Below the pieces are notes generated by a model. That model saw only the letters and a program-made list of their open reading frames with translations, made no database searches and was not told where the DNA came from. This document shows positions 9,072 through 40,657 of a stretch of 64,000 nt of DNA, piece by piece (positions within the stretch are counted from its first letter, which is position 1; every line of letters begins with the position of its first letter). Source of the stretch: Hymenobacter citatus (GTDB lineage: Bacteria; Bacteroidota; Bacteroidia; Cytophagales; Hymenobacteraceae); NCBI RefSeq assembly GCF_014333615.1, contig NZ_JACSCY010000006.1, positions 62,001-126,000 on the forward strand. The letters run 5' to 3'. The position numbers were made by a program, and so were the translations under genes.

Positions 9072-9185
9072 AAGTCCTGTCATCCTGAGTGGAGCGAAGG
9101 ACCTTCTCACGTGAGAACAGGACGTTGCTACGTCAATCGTTCAGTCGTGAGAAGGTCCTTCGCTCCACTCAGGATGACAGGACTT
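9072..9185. repeat. Dispersed palindrome, family A copy 2
   Basis: Arms start AAGTCCTGTCATCCTGAGTG and are perfectly mirrored over about 40 nt around a central loop (about 9113-9146). The inner spacer between CTGAG and GAAGGACC is TGGAGC here and is changed in both arms, unlike copy 1. It lies between the convergent DLH and phhA genes and may terminate both. Confidence 0.9.
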
Positions 9186-9204
9186 TCTCTTTTTACCCCT
9201 CCGC

Positions 9205-9948
9205 CTACCGCACCGCCAGTTGCCAGTTGCTGGCGAGTAGCGCTGCCAGATCAGCTACGCTTTCGGTGAGTTGGTCCCACGAGTTGAGTACGAAGTACTG
9301 GTCCTGGTAATGCGCTTCGGAGTAGGGCGTATGCAGCACCGTAGCCAGATCGAAGGGGTGGCGCACGTCGGTGCTGTTCAGCCAGTGATGAATCTCGCCC
9401 GCCGACGACAGCAGCCCCGCCCCATAGATGCGCGTGCTGCCGCCTTCCGTTACGAGGCCGAACTGCACCGTGAAGCCGTAGAGCCGCGCCAGTTTTTGCA
9501 GCGCTACCGAGTCGTGCAGATGCTGGCCGGCTACTCTACCCAAAAAGTGCAGGAAATCGGCGAAGGCATGGTCCATCAACAAGGGCAAATGACCAAAAGC
9601 GCAGTGGAACAGATCGGGCTGCTCAATGAAATCGAACTGCTGCATGGACCGAATCCAGGTGGTAACCGGGAATTTGCGGTCGGCCAGCAGCCCAAAGAAG
9701 GTAACGGCATCTAACTCCCCCTCTACGGGCGCAATTTCCCACCCCGTACGCCGCCGCAGCCGCTCGCTCACTTCCTCAAAGCGAGGAATAGCCGTGCGCT
9801 GAAAGCCAACCTGTTGCAAACCCTGCTCGAAGGCCACGGCCGCGCGTTTGTGCAGCAGCGCCGTTTGACGGTCAAACAATACCTTCCAGACCAGTTGGTC
9901 CTGGGTGGTGTAGTGATGGTAGTGTTGCGTATCCATAGCGTTTGGCAT
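9205..9948 (-). CDS. phhA: Phenylalanine 4-monooxygenase-like protein
   Basis: Aromatic amino acid hydroxylase: converts Phe to Tyr using O2, iron and a pterin. Counting from the inner ATG at 9936 the protein has 243 residues, the size of bacterial catalytic-domain-only enzymes. The iron-ligand block is QPDLFHCAFGHLPLL (His111, His116), followed by AGLLSSAGE near the C-terminus. The third ligand, Glu in the family motif FTVEFGL, is Gln158 here (FTVQFGL; codon CAG) and the preceding aromatic is Gly. Two starts are possible, 9948 and 9936; the T-tract of a terminator ends at 9949. An attenuator-like leader precedes the gene. Activity is uncertain because of the ligand change. Confidence 0.85.
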   Translation of the reverse strand: MPNAMDTQHYHHYTTQDQLVWKVLFDRQTALLHKRAAVAFEQGLQQVGFQRTAIPRFEEVSERLRRRTGWEIAPVEGELDAVTFFGLLADRKFPVTTWIRSMQQFDFIEQPDLFHCAFGHLPLLMDHAFADFLHFLGRVAGQHLHDSVALQKLARLYGFTVQFGLVTEGGSTRIYGAGLLSSAGEIHHWLNSTDVRHPFDLATVLHTPYSEAHYQDQYFVLNSWDQLTESVADLAALLASNWQLAVR

Positions 9949-9984
9949 AAAAAAAGCCCGGCCTCCGGGTGGAGTCGGGCTTTT
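9949..9984 (-). terminator. Terminator hairpin in the phhA leader
   Basis: On the minus strand AAAAGCCCG and CGGGCTTTT pair (outer stem, 9 bp) with an inner CTCC/GGAG stem, then seven T residues end directly at the phhA ATG (9948). The sequence at 9971-9980 inside its 5' arm is fully complementary to 10035-10044 in the upstream leader ORF, giving a mutually exclusive antiterminator of 10 bp. Confidence 0.75.
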
Positions 9985-10011
9985 GTGGTTTTCAGCTTCG
10001 TACGTCATGGT

Positions 10012-10101
10012 TTAACTTACGTACTGGCAATACCGCCCGACTCCGTCCTCCATGGGACGAATATTCATCAGGGTAAAGCGCTTGACAGATTGTTGTTGCA
10101 T
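10012..10101 (-). CDS. Candidate 29-residue leader ORF upstream of phhA
   Basis: ATG 10101 to TAA 10012, encoding a peptide that begins MQQQSVKRFTLMN and ends RYCQYVS. It contains one Phe and two Tyr codons. Codons 20-23 include GGAGTCGGGC, the strand that can pair with the terminator arm. It begins 7 nt after a TATATTTG -7 box, so the transcript could be nearly leaderless. The architecture fits a translated attenuator leader, but regulatory codons are not clustered as in the trp leader. It could instead be an untranslated ligand-sensing RNA. Confidence 0.45.
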   Translation of the reverse strand: MQQQSVKRFTLMNIRPMEDGVGRYCQYVS

Positions 10102-10108
10102 GACAGAA

Positions 10109-10116
10109 CAAATATA
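10109..10116 (-). promoter_or_regulatory. Candidate -7 box of the phhA leader transcript
   Basis: TATATTTG on the minus strand matches TAnnTTTG. No TTTG is seen at the expected 19-nt spacing. The region 10102-10312 is strongly AT-rich and holds no other recognisable feature. Confidence 0.45.
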
Positions 10117-10312: not shown

Positions 10313-11326
10313 CTATTCCAGATCTTGCCGCAGGGCGTATACCCGGCGCAAGTTGCGAATCAGGCGTGCCGATTCGGCGAAATTCAAGGTTTGGGCACCG
10401 TCGGAAGCAGCTTGCTCGGGCCGTTCGTGAGCTTCGTAGATGATGCCGTCGGCGCCGGCCATCACCCCGGCTAGGGCCATATCGGCCACGTAGTCGCGGA
10501 TACCGATACCGTGCGAAGGGTCGACGATGACGGGCAGGTGGGTTTTCTCTTTCAGAATTGGTACAGCATTCAGGTCCAGCGTGTTGCGCGAGGCGGTTTC
10601 GAATGTGCGAATGCCCCGCTCGCAGAGAATCAGCTTTTCGTTGCCGCCGGAGAAAACGTACTCAGCCGACGACAGTAGTTCCTCGATAGAACCCGAGATG
10701 CCCCGCTTGATCATCACGGGCTTGTCCACGCCGCCCAGCGCATCCAGCAGGTTGAAGTTCTGCGTGTTGCGGGCACCTACCTGAAACACATCCACGTAGT
10801 CGTGCATCTCCTCTACCTGCGACACCTGCATCACCTCCGTAATGATTTTGATGCCGTGCTGCCGGGCTAGCTGGTGAAACAGCTTCAGCCCATCCATACC
10901 CAGGCCCCGGAAGGAGTAGGGCGAGGAGCGCGGCTTGAACACGCCGCCGCGCATGATGCGCACGTCATTCTCAACCAAGTGCTGCATGATGCTTTCCATC
11001 TGGGCCTCGCTCTCGATGCTGCACGGACCAGCCGCCAGCGTGAGCGTGCCCTCGCCAATGCGCACACCGTCGCCGAGGTCGAGGACGGTTGGGCGCACGC
11101 GCCACTTCCGGCTCACCAGCTTGTAGTCGTCCGACACGCGGTGGATGTCTACAATGCCCGGTAGCTGCCCAACGGTACGAATGTCGAAATCGGCCTTACC
11201 GATGCCGATGAGGTAATGCGCGCGCTGCGTGGTCACCTCCGTGACTTTGTAGTTTACCGCCTTGATGCGGCTGATAATGGCTTCCCGGTTTTCGGGAGAA
11301 ATGGCGGGTTCTAGTTGAATGAGCAT
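10313..11326 (-). CDS. aroF: 3-deoxy-7-phosphoheptulonate synthase (DAHP synthase, type I-beta)
   Basis: First step of the shikimate pathway: phosphoenolpyruvate plus erythrose-4-phosphate gives DAHP. 337 residues. An N-terminal about 70-residue ferredoxin-like regulatory domain precedes the catalytic barrel beginning LTLAAGPCSIESEAQ. Further signatures are RGGVFKPRSSPYSFRG, QVGARNTQNF, KPVMIKRG and the late DPSHGIG. This domain order is that of the I-beta subclass of Firmicutes, Thermotoga and Bacteroidota. It is the last gene of the trp transcription unit, 144 nt after trpA. The gap is occupied by a decayed family A palindrome, so its co-transcription may be modulated. No chorismate mutase fusion is present. 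Confidence 0.94.
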   Translation of the reverse strand: MLIQLEPAISPENREAIISRIKAVNYKVTEVTTQRAHYLIGIGKADFDIRTVGQLPGIVDIHRVSDDYKLVSRKWRVRPTVLDLGDGVRIGEGTLTLAAGPCSIESEAQMESIMQHLVENDVRIMRGGVFKPRSSPYSFRGLGMDGLKLFHQLARQHGIKIITEVMQVSQVEEMHDYVDVFQVGARNTQNFNLLDALGGVDKPVMIKRGISGSIEELLSSAEYVFSGGNEKLILCERGIRTFETASRNTLDLNAVPILKEKTHLPVIVDPSHGIGIRDYVADMALAGVMAGADGIIYEAHERPEQAASDGAQTLNFAESARLIRNLRRVYALRQDLE

Positions 11327-11337
11327 AGAAAAATTGG

Positions 11338-11462
11338 TTTGTCATCCTGAGCTTGCGAAGGACCTTATCAGGTGAAAACGACAAGCATACCAACGACTCG
11401 TTCTGCCGTGATAAGGTAGGTCCTTCGTCGCCGCTTGATGCGCGGAATCCTTAGGATAACAG
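11338..11462. repeat. Dispersed palindrome, family A copy 3 (decayed right arm)
   Basis: The left arm reads TTTGTCATCCTGAGCTTGCG...GAAGGACCTTATCA. The right arm keeps GATAAGGT and GGTCCTTCG but then carries insertions and substitutions (11424-11462), so pairing is broken in its outer half. It lies inside the trp operon between trpA and aroF. Confidence 0.8.
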
Positions 11463-11470
11463 AAAAACGG

Positions 11471-12253
11471 TTAGTTCAGTACCGATTGCACAAACTGGCG
11501 GGCGGCGGCTGGGGCGTCGTCTACCCCATCCATTGCCTTAATCAGAGCCGAGCCGATGATGGCGCCTTCGGCATACTGACAAGCGCGGTCGAAGGACTGC
11601 TTGTCGCCGATACCGAAGCCGATGAGGCGCGGGTTGCGCAGATTCATGGCTTCAATACGCTGGAAATAGGCTTCCTGCGCGGTGCTGTCCTGGCCGGTTT
11701 GGCTGCCCGTGGTGCCAGGGCCCGACACGAGGTAGAGGAAAGAATCCGTCAGCTCGTCGATGCGGCGGATGCGCTCGGGGGCGGTTTGGGGCGTGATGAG
11801 GAACACCGGCCGCAGGTTGTAGCGGCGGAAAATCTCCTGGTACTCCTCCACGTAATCATCAAGGGGTAGGTCGGGTAGGATAACGCCATCAACACCGGCT
11901 TCGGCGGCTTCGCGGCAGAAATTTTCTACCCCGAATTGCATCACCGGATTCAGATAGCCCATCAGCAGAATGGGCGCATCGGGCACGCGCTGGCGCACGC
12001 CTTGCAGCTGGCGGAACAGCACGCGCATGTTCATGCCGTTTTGCAGGGCCACGGTGCCGCTGTGCTGAATCACCGGCCCGTCGGCCAGCGGGTCAGAAAA
12101 CGGCATCCCGATTTCCACCAGGTCGGCGCCGGCCTCGGTTACGGCTTCAATGAGGGGCACGGTAGCCTCCAGCGTAGGATAGCCGGCCGTGAAGTAGACG
12201 TTGAGCAGCTTTTTGCCCTTCTGCTCGAAGGTGGTTTTGATGCGGTCTTTCAT
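11471..12253 (-). CDS. trpA: Tryptophan synthase alpha chain
   Basis: Cleaves indole-3-glycerol phosphate to indole and glyceraldehyde-3-phosphate; works with TrpB. 260 residues from ATG 12253 (MKDRIKTTFEQ), which lines up with family starts. An earlier ATG (12271) would place the start inside the adjacent palindrome. The catalytic Glu and Asp lie in LVEIGMPFSDPLADGP (Glu47, Asp58). LVSGPGTTGSQTG holds the phosphate loop and IGFGIGDKQ the later barrel strand. It is separated from trpB by 169 nt containing a long palindrome, whereas most trp operons have trpB and trpA adjacent or overlapping. Confidence 0.95.
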   Translation of the reverse strand: MKDRIKTTFEQKGKKLLNVYFTAGYPTLEATVPLIEAVTEAGADLVEIGMPFSDPLADGPVIQHSGTVALQNGMNMRVLFRQLQGVRQRVPDAPILLMGYLNPVMQFGVENFCREAAEAGVDGVILPDLPLDDYVEEYQEIFRRYNLRPVFLITPQTAPERIRRIDELTDSFLYLVSGPGTTGSQTGQDSTAQEAYFQRIEAMNLRNPRLIGFGIGDKQSFDRACQYAEGAIIGSALIKAMDGVDDAPAAARQFVQSVLN

Positions 12254-12269
12254 GAGGTACTTCTTTGTC

Positions 12270-12411
12270 ATCGTTCCGTCTGTCATCCTCCATCTGGCGT
12301 CCGCTTGCAAAGGACCTTCTCACAGCAGAACGACAATCGTTCAGTGAGTAACCAAACGTGAGAAGGTCCTTTGCAAGCGGACGCCAGATGGAGGATGACA
12401 GACGGAACGAT
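12270..12411. repeat. Dispersed palindrome, family A copy 4 (inside trpB-trpA gap)
   Basis: Long mirrored arms of about 53 nt, starting ATCGTTCCGTCTGTCATCC at 12270 and ending with the complement at 12411. Between CATCC and AAAGGACC it has a longer, different spacer than other copies, and that spacer is exactly mirrored in the other arm. The central loop is about 12322-12355. Confidence 0.9.
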
Positions 12412-12422
12412 ACCAGCCCTTT

Positions 12423-13628
<1,206 letters not shown>

Positions 13629-13696
13629 AGTGAGAACCAAAAGGCACGCCGGGCGCGCAGGGTAGTGGTTGGGAATTCGTAAAGGGGAAATAGCCG

Positions 13697-14362
13697 TTAG
13701 GCATTCGAAATATTGCTGCCGGGCCGGAGGCGCTGAAACAGCTGCCGCAGCTTGCCCACGTCTTTTTCGCCGGGCGCCAGCTCAAAGCGGCTATTCAGGT
13801 CGATGCCGAAGAGGCCGGGTAGGCGCAGCGTTTGCAGTTCCTGGGCGTGGGCCAAGTCGAGCCCGCCGGCCAGAAAGTAGGGTACCGACAGCGGGTAGCG
13901 CTCCAGCAACTGCCAATCGAAGGTAGTACCGTTGCCGCCCAGCGCCGGGCCTTTGGTGTCAAACAGGAAGTAGTTGCAGCAGTCGGCATAGGGCGCGACT
14001 TGCGCAAAATCAAACGCCTCGCCCACCGAGAAAGCCTTGATAATCAAAAGGCCCACCGCACGCAGCTCAGCGCACTGCTCAGGCGACTCGTGCCCATGCA
14101 ATTGCACCAGGTCCAGGCCGTATTCTACCACGCGCTGCCGAATGACTGCCGTTGTCTCATCTACAAACACGCCTACCTTTAGAACAGATGGGGGCAGCTT
14201 GTCGAGGGTTTGCACGTTGAGCGTGGGGGCGGCGTAGCGCGGCGACTTCGCGTAGAAAATGAACCCCATGAAATCTACCCCCAACTTTGCTACTTCCCGA
14301 ATGTTTTCGTCGGAGCGCATGCCGCATACTTTGATGCGCAAGCCGGGGGTAGACGATGACAT
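13697..14362 (-). CDS. trpF: Phosphoribosylanthranilate isomerase
   Basis: Third step of the Trp branch: Amadori rearrangement of phosphoribosylanthranilate. 221 residues from ATG 14362, just before [14 protein letters not shown], where the catalytic Cys sits. The catalytic Asp is in VGVFVDET and the phosphate loops are [11 protein letters not shown] and [10 protein letters not shown]. An upstream ATG (14392) in frame would add ten residues unlike the family. It is a separate protein here, not fused to trpC. The gap to trpC is 50 nt. Confidence 0.93.
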
Positions 14363-14412
14363 CGGGTAGGTAACGGGTAGGGTGGGAAACATCAGAGAGT
14401 CAGGGTAAATAA

Positions 14413-15234
14413 TTAGAGAACAACGGCCGGCTCGGTGGCGCGCAGCTCCTGCACCAGCGCCGCACAGGCTTTTTCGGGGCGGCTGTGGCGCATAAAGGCC
14501 TCGCCCATCAAAAAGCCCCGGTAGCCCACACCGCGCAGGTAGGTGATGTCGGCCGCCGAGGTAAGGCCGCTTTCGGTCACTTTTACGAACTCAGCCGGAA
14601 TCTGCTCGGCCAGGGCCACGGAGGTTTCCAAGCTTACGGAGAAGTCGTGCAGGTTGCGGTTGTTGACGCCCACCAGGCTTACGGCTTCGGGGTGCAGGGT
14701 GCGGGCGAGTTCCTCGGCGTTGTGCACTTCCAGCAGCACTTCCAAGCCCAGCGAGCGGGCAAACTTGCCCAGGCGGGCCACTTCTTCAGCCGACAATACA
14801 GCGGCAATCAACAGCACCACATCGGCGCCCATGCTTTTGGCTTCGATGATCTGGTACTCGTCAATCACAAAATCCTTGCGCAGAATGGGGCAGAAATTGT
14901 AGCGGCGCGCAATGGTCAGGTCCTCGGTTTTGCCCCCGAAAAACTCCGTGTCTGTCAGCACCGACAGGGCCGAGGCGCCCGCCTGCATGTAGCCCAGGGT
15001 AGTGCGCTCCACGGGCGCATATTGGTTGATGAACCCCTTGCTGGGCGACTTACGCTTGAACTCGGCAATGATGCCGCTCAGGTCGTCACGGAGCAGGTAG
15101 CGGCGCAGGCTCAGGGGCTGCGCCTCCATATATAAGCTACGCTCCAGCAGTTTGGTGGGCACCAGCTCGCGGCGCTCGGCTACCTCGCGGCGCTTGTGGG
15201 TAATGATTTTATCGAGAATGGTTTCGGTCGACAT
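14413..15234 (-). CDS. trpC: Indole-3-glycerol phosphate synthase
   Basis: Ring closure forming indole-3-glycerol phosphate. 273 residues from ATG 15234 (MSTETILDKIITHKRREVAER), the usual helix opening. Motifs: AEFKRKSPSKG with catalytic Glu/Lys, VLTDTEFFGG, LRKDFVIDEYQI with catalytic Lys, LLEVHNAEEL, VGVNNRNL, and VTESGL for the phosphate. An in-frame ATG at 15300 would add 22 residues without similarity. The trpD stop lies 77 nt upstream. Confidence 0.95.
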   Translation of the reverse strand: MSTETILDKIITHKRREVAERRELVPTKLLERSLYMEAQPLSLRRYLLRDDLSGIIAEFKRKSPSKGFINQYAPVERTTLGYMQAGASALSVLTDTEFFGGKTEDLTIARRYNFCPILRKDFVIDEYQIIEAKSMGADVVLLIAAVLSAEEVARLGKFARSLGLEVLLEVHNAEELARTLHPEAVSLVGVNNRNLHDFSVSLETSVALAEQIPAEFVKVTESGLTSAADITYLRGVGYRGFLMGEAFMRHSRPEKACAALVQELRATEPAVVL

Positions 15235-15311
15235 CGTGCGGTTGCAATTTCCCACCATAGTGCGCCGTAGTAAACGCTCCGGCGCGTGGTAGGCGTTCAA
15301 ACAAAGTGAAA

Positions 15312-40173: not shown

Positions 40174-40180
40174 TTTCTGT

Positions 40181-40648
40181 AATGAGTCGCTCCACCGCGG
40201 CGCCTTCAGGCGACGAGGAAAGTCCGGGCAACACAGAGCACCCTGCTTCCTAACGGGAAGGACGGAGAAGCGTAAAGTAACTTCGGACAGCCAGTGCCAC
40301 AGAAAATTACCGCCAGGCGGTGAAATGGTGAGTGGTGAGATGGTGAGTCATGTTCAACCTGCGCAAGCAGAACAACAAACTCATCCTTTCACCATTTCAC
40401 CATCTCACCATTTGGTAAGGGTGAAAAGGTGCGGTAAGAGCGCACCAGCGGCTGGGCAACCATGCCGGCTGGGTAAACCTCAGGGGTTGAAAGACCAAAT
40501 AAGCGGATACGCTTCGGCCTTCGGGCCGGGGCACCGGGCGGCTCGTCCGGCGTCCGTGGGTAGGTTGATGGAGCCTTTCCGCGAGGACTGGCCTAGATAA
40601 ATGGTGGAGGCGCGGCAACGCGTACAAAACCCGGCTTACAGACTCATT
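40181..40648 (+). ncRNA. rnpB: RNase P RNA (bacterial type A)
   Basis: Catalytic RNA that matures tRNA 5' ends. The terminal helix P1 is formed by AATGAGTC (40181) and GACTCATT (to 40648). Universal cores are visible: GAGGAAAGTCCGGGC near 40218, CAGTGCCACAGAAAATTACCGCC near 40292, GGTAAGGGTGAAAAGGTGCGG (40414-40434) with AAGAGCGCACCAGC, GTAGGTTGATGGAGC near 40560, and ACAAAACCCGGCTTACAG close to the 3' end. About 468 nt, longer than usual, because helix P12 is expanded by mirrored repeats (40322-40413) that still end in a CTGC-GCAA-GCAG tetraloop tip. A promoter box lies 8 nt upstream and a terminator 10 nt downstream. Confidence 0.95.
40322..40413. repeat. Mirrored GGTGAG / TCACCAT repeats expanding RNase P helix P12
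   Basis: Left strand 40322-40348 holds three ATGGTGAG-like words. The right strand 40379-40413 holds TTTCACCAT-type words in the opposite sense. They pair imperfectly over about 24 bp and lead to the tip hairpin CTGCGCAAGCAG (40359-40370). Comparable mirrored words occur in spacer 49325-49445. Confidence 0.8.
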
Positions 40649-40657
40649 ACCAGCAAC

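Follow-up and report, generated by a model that had tools for sequence, protein, structure and literature searches.

The short leader in front of a phhA-like gene of Hymenobacter citatus probably works as a ribosome-mediated transcription attenuator that controls a paralog derived from phhA. The gene and its leader lie on the minus strand of the window, which is the whole 64,000-nucleotide stretch of DNA that was analyzed and whose numbering is used throughout. The in silico evidence comprises the promoter-ORF-terminator layout, covariation of the antiterminator, in-frame translation of the leader ORF, and a likely kinship with leaders that carry runs of Tyr codons; from these we infer what the ribosome does, which way the system responds, and what it senses. 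Attenuators based on leader peptides are a familiar class of element, to which the Tyr-run leaders of phhA seem to belong as undescribed members. The window leader appears to be a variant of this class in which control codons have been lost or changed and the downstream gene is a diverged paralog.

Architecture of the leader and its relatives

In the order of transcription, a -7 promoter box of the Bacteroidota type (TATATTTG, 10109 to 10116) precedes a leader ORF of 29 codons plus stop (MQQQSVKRFTLMNIRPMEDGVGRYCQYVS*, 10012 to 10101), which runs from an ATG at 10101 to a TAA at 10014-10012. This ORF had been singled out in the original prediction as holding the antiterminator strand, and it does so: segment 2 (GGAGTCGGGC, 10035 to 10044), the 5′ strand of the antiterminator, occupies codons 20 to 23. 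It shares only one base with hairpin 1 (CGTCC...GGACG, 10044 to 10059), which also lies within the ORF. A likely hairpin 2 (CAGTACGT...ACGTACGAAGCTG, 9993 to 10026), known from the predicted fold, surrounds the leader stop codon. Segment 3 (GCCCGACTCC, 9971 to 9980) is both the 5′ arm of the terminator and the 3′ strand of the antiterminator. The intrinsic terminator hairpin (9949 to 9983; −18.5 kcal/mol) has its 3′ arm at 9966-9956 and ends in a seven-T tract at 9955-9949, and its helix is conserved. The predicted fold of the window leader thus contains hairpin 1, hairpin 2 at the stop codon, and the terminator. The T-tract, once described as running up to the start of phhA, does abut an ATG in frame with the gene (9948). 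Homologues, however, conserve the ATG at 9936 as the start (MDTQHYHH), and from there the gene extends to 9205.

A PF00351 gene is present in 119 of 120 Hymenobacter genomes. A covariance model of the leader found matches before the phhA-like gene across the genus, from which 107 leaders that keep the ORF were extracted, representing 107 Hymenobacter genomes. The same kind of leader occurs at a further 16 loci in two other genera of the family, g4 and g6, for a total of 123; a single scan of genome contigs had returned only 4 relatives. The protein of H. profundi M2 is 97% identical to that of the window. Weaker matches to the model elsewhere (under ∼37 bits) are probably terminators. In one genome (G004, locus L113, about 1970 to 2180), a second match lies ∼2.6 kb before an intact tandem phhA pair; it was considered as the leader of another regulated gene and rejected, being what is left of a leader duplication that included a truncated start of phhA.

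Of the 107 automatically extracted leaders, 104 have a box of the form TAnnTT[TC]G 4 to 8 nt ahead of their ATG. Because the Flavobacterium −7 box covers positions −12 to −5 (PMC9723704), the 5′ untranslated regions (UTRs) of the homologous leaders would be ∼0 to 4 nt long. In the window, transcription is predicted to start at about 10104, leaving a 5′ UTR of ∼3 nt. In Bacteroidota, 5′ UTRs of this length are rare and account for ∼4 to 6% of mRNAs.

Several other features were observed in the neighborhood. A DAHP synthase gene and several trp-like genes occupy 10313 to 15300 on the minus strand, just upstream of phhA, and a DAHP synthase homologue likewise precedes the phhA pair of G004. On the plus strand, ordinary Rfam matches mark a SAM riboswitch (1970 to 2077) and RNase P RNA (40179 to 40654). 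A palindromic repeat with arms TGTCATCCTGAGNNNAGCGAAGGACCTT is found at 9077 to 9190 and at about 11340 to 11470. Genome-wide, it has 139 forward and 137 reverse copies, often as inverted pairs ∼74 bp apart, and it resembles a dispersed MITE or REP element.

Alternative pairing, translation, and proposed mechanism

The original prediction described a leader with mutually exclusive pairings, based on a perfect 10-nt complement between 10035-10044 and the terminator 5′ arm at 9971-9980. The coordinates and the exact match were confirmed, and the wider claim now has the backing of homologous leaders (123 in all), of covariation, and of evidence for coding. The complementarity exceeds chance, as only 3 of 5,000 dinucleotide shuffles of the window ORF reach a match to the arm of the same length. 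As long as the terminator 3′ arm is missing from the transcript, the window leader has its energy minimum in the antiterminator fold (−37.6 kcal/mol); in the full leader, the terminator state (−49.6 kcal/mol) and the forced antiterminator (−46.8 kcal/mol) are close, 2.8 kcal/mol apart.

Segments 2 and 3 change together among the homologues, for example, GGAGTCGGGC/GCCCGACTCC, GGAATCGGGC/GCCCGATTCC, and GGAGCCAGG/CCTGGCTCC. Their covariation score is 0.244, compared with at most 0.166 for shuffles (0 of 500 as high) and 0.111 for the best slid version, and cognate duplexes are stronger than 5,000 of 5,000 permutations. Among 43 distinct pairs, 85% of the cells are paired, with 23 double-change cells across 4 base pairs; because the sequences are related, neither these counts nor the codon counts below represent independent events. 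Pairing is weaker (5 to 9 of 10 bp) in a large clade of leaders beginning MRHQ. In hairpin 1, 99.4% of the cells are paired and a U-A pair is replaced by C-G in a compensatory change, while the G001 clade has exchanged the hairpin for an unrelated stem, CTGCA/TGCAG. Hairpin 1 is possibly an RNA polymerase pause hairpin. A covariance search in homologous leaders had been proposed as a check, with the pairing to be abandoned if compensatory changes were missing; since the homologues do carry such changes, the pairing is not refuted on that count.

The leader ORF is very likely translated. Among single-difference codons of nearest pairs, 149 synonymous changes were counted in the ORF frame against 98 expected; the alternative frames gave 83 (93.5 expected) and 92 (92.3 expected). 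Upstream of hairpin 1, indels come in multiples of three and so keep the frame. The dN/dS of the leader peptide is ∼0.5, and its sequence is not conserved across clades, with whole segments differing.

According to the proposed mechanism, the leader AUG would lie only a few bases into the transcript, and a ribosome would therefore load almost immediately. A ribosome that stalled early (codons 8 to 15) would leave segment 2 free to pair with segment 3 as soon as the latter is made, and the terminator would be blocked and the gene read. If translation were on time, ordinary spacing between RNA polymerase and ribosome would put the ribosome on codons ∼18 to 26 as segments 3 and 4 emerge; there it would mask segment 2 and the terminator would form, yielding transcripts that end at 9955-9949. 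We infer the codon positions at which segment 2 would be masked from usual footprint sizes. The leader stop codon is located ∼20 nt downstream of segment 2, too far for a ribosome waiting there to mask that segment; termination in the fed state would hence need timing rather than parking. In this position of the stop codon past the antiterminator strand, and in its nearly leaderless start, the window leader differs from the textbook trp leader.

With attenuators of the trp, his, and phe types, the window leader shares a short ORF after the promoter with a coding signal, an antiterminator strand within that ORF, a terminator before the gene, and mutually exclusive hairpins that compete for one strand. 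Unlike them, it has no run of control codons for a product amino acid, a feature that is present in the sister Tyr-run leaders. No Rfam family matched the leader at the gathering score; the best weak match, to Thr_leader, scored 19.7 bits (E = 0.12), where 55 bits would be needed. The earlier statement that no RNA element of this kind is known before phhA agrees with our search of Rfam and the open literature, which yielded none. In Flavobacterium psychrophilum, also a member of Bacteroidota with this promoter type, putative attenuation by leader peptides before amino-acid genes has been proposed; the available part of that report (PMC9723704) treats attenuation in general terms and gives no phhA element.

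Tyr-run leaders of canonical phhA and the signal sensed

Leaders with runs of Tyr codons, such as YYYYY, were identified before canonical phhA in three other genera of the family (g4, g5, and g6) and in other Cytophagales families; together these are loci L146-L175, L213, L215, L221, L224, L225, and L228. Many Hymenobacter genomes have a second phhA in tandem, and it likewise has such a leader. Examples are MNLMNNAYYYYYYHQSRRFGVGCVCS, MHLFSQSYYYYYPTCQPTGFGNGRVCTTASEQTQ, MLLFTSRYYYAATYYAPLRSGAAAAYARN, and MNFTHNTYYYYYQAPKGIGNGSVMHMM. Their logic is the classical sensing of a product amino acid, and our search of the open literature found no description of Tyr-run phhA leaders.

The Tyr-run leaders and the window-type leaders (type II) precede homologous genes and have the same order of parts: a promoter at the same spacing with a start close to it, an antiterminator strand inside the ORF, and a terminator. 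The distance from control codon to antiterminator is also similar: the Tyr runs lie 8 to 36 nt before segment 2 in most of the sister leaders examined and the type II Cys codons lie 14 to 39 nt before it. The two kinds differ in that Tyr-run leaders have 4 to 11 Tyr codons and precede proteins with a His-His-Glu iron site (43/43), whereas the window leader lacks the run and precedes a His-His-Gln protein. A protein tree fits two paralog lineages, one for each leader type: it requires 2 label changes, and 72% of bootstrap trees require 1. These comparisons suggest that the window-type leader and the Tyr-run attenuators before canonical phhA are likely homologous, and that the paralog lineage of the window has lost the Tyr run, with a Cys codon apparently occupying the lost-Tyr slots in most relatives.

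The original prediction noted that the leader ORF is not rich in any one amino acid, and indeed the window leader contains no repeated control codon. Cys is the residue that stands out among its relatives, at 8.6 times the background. We therefore weighed the possibility that low levels of charged tRNA-Cys stall the ribosome 14 to 39 nt before segment 2 and turn the gene on, a refinement of the attenuator explanation that could hold for the lineage even though it is lost in the window. At least one Cys is present in 107 of 107 leaders, where proteome composition predicts 18, and in 46 of 46 representatives, where shuffles give a mean of 28.8 and a maximum of 36; the shuffle values indicate that the enrichment is partly compositional, and UGC is also common in another frame of the leader RNA. 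A Cys codon lies upstream of segment 2 in 100 of the 107 leaders. It occupies one of two slots, codons 7 to 11 or 12 to 16 (27 early, 14 mid, 3 both, and 2 neither among the 46 representatives), and on the protein tree the slot switched at least 6 times. The codon was also lost without replacement ∼5 times. The window leader is one of these losses and among the 7 leaders without an upstream Cys: its codon 8 (10078 to 10080), the usual position of Cys (UGC) in relatives, is now CGC (Arg), and its sole Cys is codon 25, after segment 2. The late Cys (codons 24 to 26) was rejected as a sensor because a stall there would cover segment 2; moreover, in one clade the UGC persists in the RNA out of frame.

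A precedent for control by so few codons is the proposed tRNA-Cys attenuator uORFC-8-2 before cysS in Rhodobacterales (PMC8632094), an upstream ORF with single or paired Cys codons (very few conserved Cys, at positions 14 and 15) followed by a terminator; it belongs to another taxon and gene, and the window leader lacks the upstream Cys. The leader peptides of actinobacterial cys operons (PMC1262725) are also encoded by short upstream ORFs with Cys codons, but theirs are Cys runs near the stop codon and have no terminator hairpin. Against Cys control in the present family stand the use of one codon rather than a run and the lack of a known link between the phhA-like protein and cysteine. We regard Cys sensing as a serious possibility that falls somewhat short of an even chance and, because the window leader is one of the Cys losses, as plausible for the lineage only.

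That the signal is instead Tyr or Phe, read through the remaining aromatic codons (Phe9, Tyr24, and Tyr27 in the window), would fit descent from Tyr-run leaders and the fact that codons 7 to 16 of each representative include one or more of C, Y, F, and W. Aromatic residues in the 107 type II leaders are nevertheless at or under background (F, 0.85×; Y, 0.77×; W, 0.26×), two representatives (G067 and G010) have none, and some leaders have no aromatic codon upstream of segment 2. The Tyr/Phe codon signal originally suggested for the window gene was therefore rejected for want of enrichment, and its residual form is improbable; its Tyr part does hold for the sister leaders of canonical phhA.

Sensing by the nascent peptide, in which the peptide would stall the ribosome together with a free metabolite as in TnaC, is more doubtful still. 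Moderate purifying selection, at the dN/dS given above, and the recurrence across genera of [VA][KNQ]C near codon 8 are consistent with it, but the only invariant residues are those fixed by RNA pairing, and the peptide is not conserved between clades. A candidate sensor motif, NIRP..DGVG..C, was rejected: its apparent invariance is confined to close relatives and dissolves in other clades, and it is largely a by-product of hairpin 1 and segment 2.

Direct binding of Phe, Tyr, or a pterin by a riboswitch, with the ORF incidental, would account for a leader in which hairpins are conserved and an antiterminator and terminator are present but no run of control codons is obvious. It is contradicted by the frame-specific synonymous excess and the frame-keeping indels, by the replacement of hairpin 1 with an unrelated stem in one clade and the absence of an invariant aptamer-like core, by Rfam matches that are at chance level below the gathering score, and by sister leaders that are plainly Tyr-codon attenuators. 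Nothing in the evidence points to the directly sensed ligand once suggested, and we consider a riboswitch very unlikely. Least probable of all is a plain terminator with a chance complement and no regulation, since intrinsic terminators are common but this reading is already largely refuted by the covariation and conservation in 123 leaders, together with the conserved promoter-ORF arrangement.

Divergence of the phhA-like protein

The attenuator proposed here would control a gene whose name needs a caveat. The original prediction called it phhA; it is a member of the PF00351 family (158.6 bits), but the iron-ligand Glu is replaced by Gln in the window protein. Its score of 248.3 bits for NF008877 is barely above the cutoff of 247, and it falls below the cutoff of TIGR01267. 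The positions of the two-His-one-Glu iron triad are His111, His116, and Gln158, of which Gln158 aligns with the iron-ligand Glu of solved bacterial phenylalanine hydroxylases, and a Cys (Cys112) follows the first His.

Iron sites were compared among 104 family proteins, with the window gene (9205 to 9936) and homologues L193-L209 and L001-L065 representing the eroded sites. All 43 proteins behind Tyr-run leaders keep His-His-Glu. Behind type II leaders, 49 of 59 proteins lack the triad (40 have His-His-Gln and 9 are missing at least one His) and 10 retain it. The eroded sites are mostly HHQ, with A/S-R-E in one Hymenobacter clade and Q/L-Q/H-G in genus g4. In the window genome, a gene for prephenate dehydrogenase is present and homogentisate dioxygenase was not detected; the phhA-like gene is therefore not evidently needed either for Tyr supply or for complete Phe breakdown.

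These results add a Tyr-run attenuator that is widespread in Cytophagales and precedes phhA. Because control codons can be compared between two paralogs in the same genomes, a change of signal can be observed in evolution and tested with single-codon mutants. Where a gene annotated as phhA follows a type II leader, the canonical iron site is often missing, and tyrosine production should not be assumed. A tentative reading, to which we give a lesser chance than to Cys sensing in the lineage, is that after a duplication in Hymenobacteraceae one phhA copy kept the Tyr-run attenuator and the enzyme site, while the other exchanged Tyr for Cys codons as its protein lost the iron site. If so, the second copy would be a cysteine-status switch over a repurposed hydroxylase fold, and the leader would record the change of role.
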